From a virus, in the IMG/VR virus record IMGVR_UViG_3300035698_009019, positions 1-28,563 of that record: a stretch of DNA of 28,563 nucleotides. The stretch is one strand, 5' to 3'. Made by a program: the position numbers and the translations under genes. Of the stretch, positions 3 through 853 are shown piece by piece (the first letter of the stretch is position 1; each line of letters opens with the position of its first letter). The notes under the pieces are model-generated. The model was not told the origin of the DNA. It did no database searches and saw only the letters and a program-made list of their open reading frames with translations.

Positions 3-491
3 CAGTTGAGTGAGGGCGATAAACGGCAAGATGTGCTTATTCAACTGGAAGGCATCTTTGCAAAAGTCAAAGGGCTCCCGAAACGCCTTGCCGCGGACTT
101 GTTGAATGTTTACGGCCTGACGGCATTTGAGGTCGTCAAAAATAATCCTTATGTGCTGATCGAAATGAGCCGGATAGGGTTTGTTTCAGCGAACAAGGTT
201 GCGCTGGCTTGCGGGGTTAAGCTGGATGATCCTGAGCGTATCAAGGCCGGGATTATATATGTTATCAAACAAACGATGCAGGAAGCCGGGGACGTATGGC
301 TAAACCCAAAGGCAATTACTGTAAATCTGATGGATTTAATTCCTGGGGTTAAACCTGCTAAAATAAGCTTGATGGCAGGTGAGCTTATTAATGATCAGAC
401 TTTGACTGAACACAACGGATTTTTCACATTCGCGCAGTTTGCAGACGACGAAAGTTTGATAGCGGACTGTGTAACGAGGTTTTTGGGTTGA
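3..491 (+). CDS. RecD2-like helicase, N-terminal helix-hairpin-helix part (split gene, 5' end outside window)
   Basis: The frame is open from the window edge, so the true start is probably upstream; a TTG at 6 is the only start-like codon nearby. The protein matches the RecD2/TraA-type N-terminal region: a helix-hairpin-helix stretch (GLPKRLAADLLNVYG), the NPYVLIEMSRIGF segment and DDPERIKAGIIYVI, the order seen just before the helicase core in full-length RecD2. It stops at TGA 489-491, where a complete RecD2 would run into the Walker A region. That region follows at 850 as a separate frame. I infer one ancestral gene split by the 491-850 insert. This half has no ATPase motif and could at most be a DNA-binding partner of the second half. 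Family assignment is good; function as a separate polypeptide is unknown. Confidence 0.75.
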   Translation, partial: QLSEGDKRQDVLIQLEGIFAKVKGLPKRLAADLLNVYGLTAFEVVKNNPYVLIEMSRIGFVSANKVALACGVKLDDPERIKAGIIYVIKQTMQEAGDVWLNPKAITVNLMDLIPGVKPAKISLMAGELINDQTLTEHNGFFTFAQFADDESLIADCVTRFLG

Positions 492-514
492 CATTTACTT
501 TAAATTACTATAAT
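488..514 (+). promoter_or_regulatory. sigma-70-type promoter at the left edge of the insert
   Basis: A perfect TTGACA (488-493) and a perfect TATAAT (509-514) are separated by 15 bp, slightly shorter than the usual 16-18. The -35 box contains the TGA stop of the upstream RecD2 half. Transcription would begin near 520-522, about 20 nt before the first hairpin of the folded RNA at 541. The surroundings are very AT-rich compared with the flanking helicase sequence. Both hexamers are seen directly; activity is inferred, and the short spacer lowers confidence. Confidence 0.6.
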
Positions 515-540
515 AAAATAATGAAAAGGAAAAGCTTTTA

Positions 541-652
541 TGAGAAGTCACGGTCTCAACAATCAATTTAAGATTCAAATAGGGTATATCAAAAGACTGC
601 ATTCCACGTGCAGTTTAGGAGCCGTGACCTCCGTTTTGGTATGCCCTATTTG
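541..652 (+). ncRNA. structured RNA with kissing loops upstream of an HNH remnant
   Basis: Four helices can be read by eye. Hairpin A: TGAGA 541-545 with TCTCA 554-558. Long helix B: 576-590 with 638-652, 15 pairs, two of them G-U. Inside B, hairpin C: CTGCA 597-601 with TGCAG 609-613, extendable by AGA 594-596 with TTT 614-616, one pair being G-U. Also inside B, hairpin D: GGAG 618-621 with CTCC 629-632. The loop of A contains GTCACGG (547-553) and the whole loop of D is CCGTGAC (622-628). They are perfectly complementary over 7 bases, so a kissing-loop pseudoknot is predicted. The fold ends 6 nt before the Shine-Dalgarno sequence of the HNH remnant. It could be a translational switch, a homing-element RNA or a processed RNA. 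I do not recognise it as a named family. Confidence 0.65.
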
Positions 653-670
653 TGTTTTAAGGGGGTTGTT

Positions 671-853
671 GTGGAATTAATTGAATTAACCAAGGTGTGT
701 AGTAAGTGTGGGGAAAGAAAAGGTTGGTTAGGTTTTCATAAAAAGAAAAGTGGTTGTTGGGGCTTAAAAAACTTACAATTATTACCTCTTATGAAAAATA
801 AAATTAAAGGTGGTAAACTTAACAAGCCATTTCAACCATCATTACCATTATGA
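671..853 (+). pseudogene. collapsed HNH homing endonuclease remnant (60 aa)
   Basis: GTG 671 is chosen as start because AAGGGGG lies at 659-665; a start at GTG 608 would fall inside hairpin C of the upstream RNA. The protein begins like phage HNH endonucleases, with a zinc-knuckle half (CSKCGERKGWLGFHKKKSG). It then passes directly into the typical C-terminal tail of the same kind of enzyme (CWGLKNLQLLPLMKNKIKGG). The whole catalytic His-Asn-His core that should lie between is missing, so it cannot be an active nuclease. Its TGA (851-853) overlaps the ATG (850) of the helicase half, so its translation may feed ribosomes into that gene. I infer an internally deleted homing endonuclease. The alternative is a retained small leader peptide. 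Confidence 0.6.

Follow-up and report, generated by a model that had tools for sequence, protein, structure and literature searches.

What is the role of a strongly folded RNA that lies between the two parts of a phage recD2 gene, directly ahead of the remnant of an HNH endonuclease gene? The DNA examined is a 28.6-kb virus record (IMGVR_UViG_3300035698_009019, positions 1-28,563), and this whole stretch of 28,563 nt is referred to here as the window.

A split recD2 gene with an insert at the domain junction

The N-terminal part of a phage RecD2 (recD2-N) is encoded on the plus strand at 3-491, the gene start being outside the window, and carries the HHH_RecD2 domain (Pfam PF14490, E 1.3e-19). 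The C-terminal helicase part (recD2-C; Pfam AAA_30, 2e-36, UvrD_C_2 and SH3_13) is encoded on the same strand at 850-2118. recD2-N covers positions 166-304 of PHROG 4412 and recD2-C covers 329-737 (E 6.9e-108). The HHH and helicase domains are separated by an insert of 359 nt, which contains TTGACA/TATAAT hexamers, a folded RNA and the HNH ORF remnant. Three uninterrupted RecD2 proteins align over both parts, and about 22 linker residues are absent at the junction. RecD2 probably works as two polypeptides in this phage. No close relatives of either part were found when viral contigs were searched with both, and no DNA similarity of the window to phages was found.

Further downstream, the reading frame of recD2-C goes on beyond its stop (2119-2286), first with a second HNH fragment, PDNIDFQKCWALKNLQLL, and then with a DUF4406/deoxyribosyltransferase-like tail. 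Between 2286 and 4074 a DNA methylase is present in several open pieces, and an in-frame TGA splits YWGL/RDYG.

At the 5′ edge of the insert, a -35-like TTGACA (488-493, plus strand) overlaps the recD2-N stop codon, and a -10-like TATAAT (509-514, plus strand) follows after a spacer of 15 nt, below the optimal length. TTGACA-N15-19-TATAAT occurs once in the window with both strands counted, and 0.018% of shuffles of 441-560 contain it. The hexamer pair at 488-514 was absent from a promoter scan with spacers of 16-18 nt, and the 15-nt spacer is a point against reading the RNA as a structured leader.

The HNH ORF (671-853, plus strand, 60 aa) starts with GTG at 671 and is preceded by a Shine-Dalgarno (SD) sequence AAGGGGG (659-665, plus strand). 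Aligned with its full-length relatives (237 and 246 aa), it is recognizable as the remnant of a homing endonuclease: the zinc-ribbon N-terminus is joined to the C-terminal CW.LKNLQ..KPFQPSL and the catalytic middle is deleted. Its stop and the ATG start of recD2-C overlap as ATGA. The ORF list and the sequence also give a candidate uORF of 46 codons (540-680, plus strand), which spans the whole RNA and may be translated. It is preceded by an SD-like AAAGGA at 525-530 and stops 10 nt into the HNH ORF, overlapping the HNH start.

Like this insert, phage introns often lie within a gene and carry an HNH ORF. It is nevertheless very unlikely that a remnant self-splicing intron (group I or other) with its HNH gene is spliced here from the recD2 mRNA. 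No Rfam intron model matches, neither a group I nor a group II core was found with Rfam in the window, the insert begins with a promoter at its 5′ edge, the recD2 parts each have their own stop and start, and linker residues are missing.

Fold and loop complementarity of the leader

The minimum free energy of 530-670 is -53.8 kcal/mol, whereas shuffled sequences give -28.8 +/- 3.5 (z -7.2, reached by none of 200). Together with the deletion of the HNH middle seen by alignment, this bears out the preliminary description, in which a structured RNA precedes an HNH remnant. Folding predicts, on the plus strand, a 5′ hairpin (541-558; stem 541-545/554-558, loop GUCACGG 547-553) and a main stem of 18 bp (576-652; 576-593/635-652). 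The main stem encloses hairpin Y (594-616; 594-602/608-616, loop UCCAC) and hairpin X (618-632; 618-621/629-632, loop CCGUGAC 622-628); the 14-mer of hairpin X at 617-630 is AGGAGCCGUGACCU. The helix had earlier been given 15 pairs (576-590/638-652); these pairs are present, but the stem extends for 3 more. The two hairpins within it were recovered at the coordinates reported earlier, as was the exact complementarity of the loop at 622-628 to the outside loop at 547-553. This match had been thought improbable by chance, and a loop-loop match of at least 7 bp was indeed reached in 1 of 3000 shuffles (0.03%), and an equally strong one in none.

The complementarity of GUCACGG and CCGUGAC extends into the stems (CUC/GAG), so that a 10-bp long-range helix could take the place of a kissing interaction; this helix is what folding predicts for a transcript that stops at 630. 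Kissing loops and a plain long-range helix are indistinguishable by sequence. When the start codon was included in folding, two states of nearly equal energy were predicted (-57.3 and -56.7 kcal/mol). The competing states have either the 5′ hairpin closed or its 3′ arm paired with the start-codon region. The fold had been described as ending just before the ribosome binding site (RBS). It does lie near this site, but most of the SD at 659-665 is paired within the predicted fold (mean P(unpaired) 0.29). The loop of hairpin Y is complementary to the start codon (TCCAC/GTGGA); this match is short, which is a further point against the structured-leader reading.

The same region could be a long inverted repeat of the ordinary kind with no function as RNA, for instance a DNA-level repeat or decaying sequence, since it is single copy with no homologue and its stem forms an inverted repeat in the DNA as well. 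Two apex hairpins, a loop match, a promoter just upstream and an SD inside the fold would not be expected of such a repeat, and we consider this explanation quite unlikely.

Searches for relatives of the RNA

No homologue of the entire RNA was found in DNA, pattern and single-sequence-model searches. Among these, an exact pattern search for both kissing hairpins in viral contigs gave none, and the single-sequence model gave no relative over ~1 Mb of collected loci. Rfam gave no match in the window at the gathering threshold and only chance matches in 400-860 at E<=10, in keeping with the earlier remark that no familiar family was recognized in the fold.

A structured RNA immediately upstream of an HNH ORF might also be a guide-type RNA for the HNH protein. 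The HEARO or omega RNAs of IscB are structured RNAs that likewise lie beside an HNH gene. The RNA had already been set apart from HEARO/IscB systems, and this distinction stands: in the window there is no HEARO match in sequence or structure and no IscB-type protein with RuvC/PLMP domains, and the HNH is of a different family and is deleted. Moreover, RNAs related to it are found ahead of GIY-YIG and other nuclease genes. A guide function is thus extremely improbable.

Eighty HNH loci were collected by protein similarity alone. Leaders of the HNH family fold with z < -4 in 14 of the 80, compared with 5% of controls, and strongly folded ones often sit immediately after a -10-like box. In L040 the SD of the HNH gene lies wholly within a long stem (1915-2000, z -8.3). 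Two further layouts were observed. A large H-type pseudoknot occurs in an HNH-family leader of L084, L085 and L086 (~1720-1890), with the pairings AGCAAACAG/CTGTTTGCT and AGGGAAAAGAG/CTCTTTTCCCT. In L050, L059, L060, L063, L069, L081 and L088 a -10-like box, a GC-rich hairpin, CUAAC/CUAAAC and a small SD-bearing hairpin recur.

Hairpin X is identical at 12 of 14 positions to hairpin P2 (AGGAGUCAUGACCU) of the phage int-alpA-like leaders described below, and a similar hairpin is contained in the HNH leaders of L073 and L074. The HNH and RecD2 loci chosen without reference to the hairpin motif (389 kb) contain sites with at most two mismatches to AGGAGTCATGACCT only in these two HNH leaders. The window itself has exactly one such site, at 617-630, with a shuffle p of 5e-4 that is partly post hoc because the degenerate motif was chosen after three cases had been seen.

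A phage branch of int-alpA leaders

Viral contigs were scanned for the hairpin in combination with a -10 box, and separately for the 14-mer. The scans gave many leaders of one architecture, an overall three-way junction of P1, P2 (RGG-loop-CCY), P3 and P1′ with a pseudoknot in which the P3 loop pairs just ahead of the SD. Among 26 curated members, the strands of P1 and of the pseudoknot match much better when both come from the same sequence than when they come from different ones (permutation p <5e-5 each), and the pseudoknot sequences are unrelated (UUUUCCUAA/UUAGGAAAA, GCCAACG/CGUUGGC, CUUACUCU/AGAGUAAG). The covariation score of 23 model-aligned members, in an alignment fitted to the model, is 0.545, compared with 0.194 for shuffles and at most 0.169 for slid alignments. 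Model R1 (nine members) recovers only L073 and L074 in 378 kb of HNH loci. An R1 match of 23 bits in G035 was rejected as a false positive.

Start codons lie 66-111 nt past P2 in the tabulated genes, mostly 83-86. The proteins encoded downstream carry HNH (Pfam; L096, L097, L098), HNH_3 with NUMOD4 (L132, L188, L220) or HNH_3 only (L095), and GIY-YIG with NUMOD3 (L112, L118) or a weak GIY-YIG (L103); DUF723 (L104) and TnsA-like (L099) proteins are also found. A few downstream genes are non-nuclease early genes (KilA-N, Phage_rep_O, Phage_rep_org). Other leaders adjoin phage tRNAs, and those of L159 and L210 begin right after a tRNA. Homing-endonuclease ORFs directly after tRNA genes in L159 (1504-1760) and L210 (1493-1760) contain in-frame TAG, which suggests TAG-recoded phages.

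In the tRNA arrays of L129, L127, L177, L174 and L145, a AGGAGUCAUGACCU hairpin lies between phage tRNAs with other flanks (GAAAU...GAAAUAAG). This hairpin has no Rfam match, and some array matches, which share only P2, may not be full members. The HDV-like theta ribozymes of phages are, as here, compact pseudoknotted RNAs near phage tRNAs, with a nested double pseudoknot; they are proposed to take part in cleaving tRNA 3′ trailers (PMC10879173). Unlike theta ribozymes, the RNAs here gave no HDV-type Rfam match.

Rfam gave no matches for the first family members. L318 aligns across the full int-alpA model (RF02996) with 26.6 bits (E 7e-4), and L095 and L111 reach 33.6-33.7 bits (E 3-5e-7); the view that the leaders are absent from Rfam was rejected after such weak int-alpA matches emerged. 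The order of elements is shared, with P1-UAG-P2-GAAAAG-P3 in int-alpA and the junctions GAUAG and UGAYAA in the phage branch. An int-alpA match of 43.6 bits, above the gathering cut-off of 35.8 bits, lies directly before a GIY-YIG-like/NUMOD3 gene (L374), and one of 35.0 bits, just under it, directly before the HNH gene of L035 (L378). By these alignments, and by the int-alpA matches before endonuclease genes, the leaders form a divergent branch of int-alpA in phages. Most of them score under the cut-off, and for these we make no claim of formal membership. A genome scan with the type-A motif gave 6 matches, with ~14 estimated by chance and none in a hairpin context; the leader type therefore looks phage-restricted. 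To our knowledge, no function of int-alpA RNA has been established.

Palindromic P2 loops and the place of the window RNA

Four of the eight distinct P2 loop types hold a 6-nt palindrome (UAGCUA, UAAUUA, CUGCAG, CUUAAG), where shuffled loops would be expected to give 0.46 (p ~1.5e-4; types from members found without using the loop, loop limits set by the analyst). L159 and L375 break this rule, and in L320 and L374 the palindrome is no longer than 4 nt. The palindromes suggest loop-loop dimers. A two-hairpin palindrome scan gave one real case, L182, which carries two P2 hairpins; the notion that every P2 loop is accompanied by another copy close by was rejected. The two P2-like loops of the window are non-palindromic and complementary to each other.

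The int-alpA RNAs and their phage relatives, like the window RNA, precede homing-endonuclease genes and have a hairpin of the general form RGG-AGUCAUGA-CCY and palindromic or complementary loops. The window RNA might then be a rearranged leader of this type, in which P2 corresponds to hairpin X (or to the 5′ hairpin) and P3 to hairpin Y, whose loop would pair with the start codon; a duplication of P2 would have let the two loops pair in a single molecule. The P2-like 14-mer at 617-630, the similar setting of promoter, leader and homing endonuclease, and the precedent of L182 speak for this, and two copies of an often palindromic P2 loop would be expected to match. However, the window RNA (in a stretch of 401 nt) fails both family models (R1, 6.7 bits, E 0.42; R2, 7.9 bits, E 0.07), and no RF02996 match was found in it at E<=10. 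It is thus at most a rearranged int-alpA-like relative. P1 enclosing P2 and then P3, with UAG and GAAAAG or GAUAG and UGAYAA between them, is not present; Y before X reverses the order of P2 and P3, and a loop-3 pseudoknot before the SD is absent. Compared with the P2 consensus (RGG-[AG][AG]UCAUGA-CCY or another palindromic loop), the 12/14-identical hairpin has a non-palindromic loop, complementary to 547-553. A family member would be expected to have a promoter directly upstream and the endonuclease start codon 77-98 nt after P2; in the window the promoter hexamers are present, and the distance from hairpin X to the GTG is 54 nt. Such a rearrangement is conceivable but doubtful. Perhaps the window leader was assembled from int-alpA-type hairpins.

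A putative translational gate

We favor, with a probability of about 0.6, the reading that an HNH cassette was inserted into recD2 and that its leader gates translation of both the HNH ORF and the RecD2 helicase. With the fold strength, the complementarity, the split gene, the promoter hexamers and the overlaps established here, we infer transcription, translation, gating and a two-piece RecD2 along the following lines. A freestanding cassette of promoter, structured 5′ leader and HNH ORF would have been inserted at the recD2 domain junction, and the catalytic middle of the ORF deleted afterwards. The leader transcript would begin near 520. Its fold would hold the larger part of the HNH SD in base pairs, joined by the GTG start in one of the two near-isoenergetic states, and would act as a gate on translation in cis. 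GUCACGG/CCGUGAC pairing would stabilize the state with a closed 5′ hairpin, in which the start codon is less paired, and translation of the uORF could unfold the whole structure. Through the ATGA overlap of the HNH stop with the start of recD2-C, RecD2-helicase translation would by now be coupled to this gate as well. The HNH ORF is catalytically dead and the RNA could therefore be decaying, although the fold seems intact. The first interpretation of this RNA is in part supported; it had overlooked the split recD2, the promoter, the masking of the SD, the uORF and the P2-like hairpin.

Hairpins sequester the RBS of I-TevI, segB and Aeh1 mobE, and HNH endonucleases split nrdA (mobE) and gene 60 (mobA) (PMC2988022). 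As in these T4 and Aeh1 cases, the window has an HNH-type endonuclease in a split DNA-metabolism gene, a covered RBS, which in the window is a prediction, and a start/stop overlap (PMC2988022). The T4/Aeh1 leaders have a late promoter inside a simple hairpin, whereas the window has a branched fold, a loop match and its own upstream promoter; its endonuclease is deleted and its host gene is recD2. By analogy with the RBS-covering leaders of T-even phages (PMC2988022), the window RNA may function as a structured homing-endonuclease leader.

More speculatively, and unlikely as we hold it to be, int-alpA RNAs would be concentration-sensing endonuclease leaders that dimerize by palindromic P2 loops (GUCAUGAC, UAGCUA, CUGCAG, CUUAAG, UAAUUA), with the window as a built-in kissing pair. 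If so, RNA concentration, and hence phage genome number, would set endonuclease translation, and the non-palindromic pair within the window molecule would make the switch concentration-independent. The int-alpA relatives precede endonucleases of unrelated families, with the start codon at much the same distance in most cases, which makes their function testable, as translation gating or as loop dimers. In the window the endonuclease is dead, and its leader appears to have been turned into an expression signal for half of a split recombination helicase.
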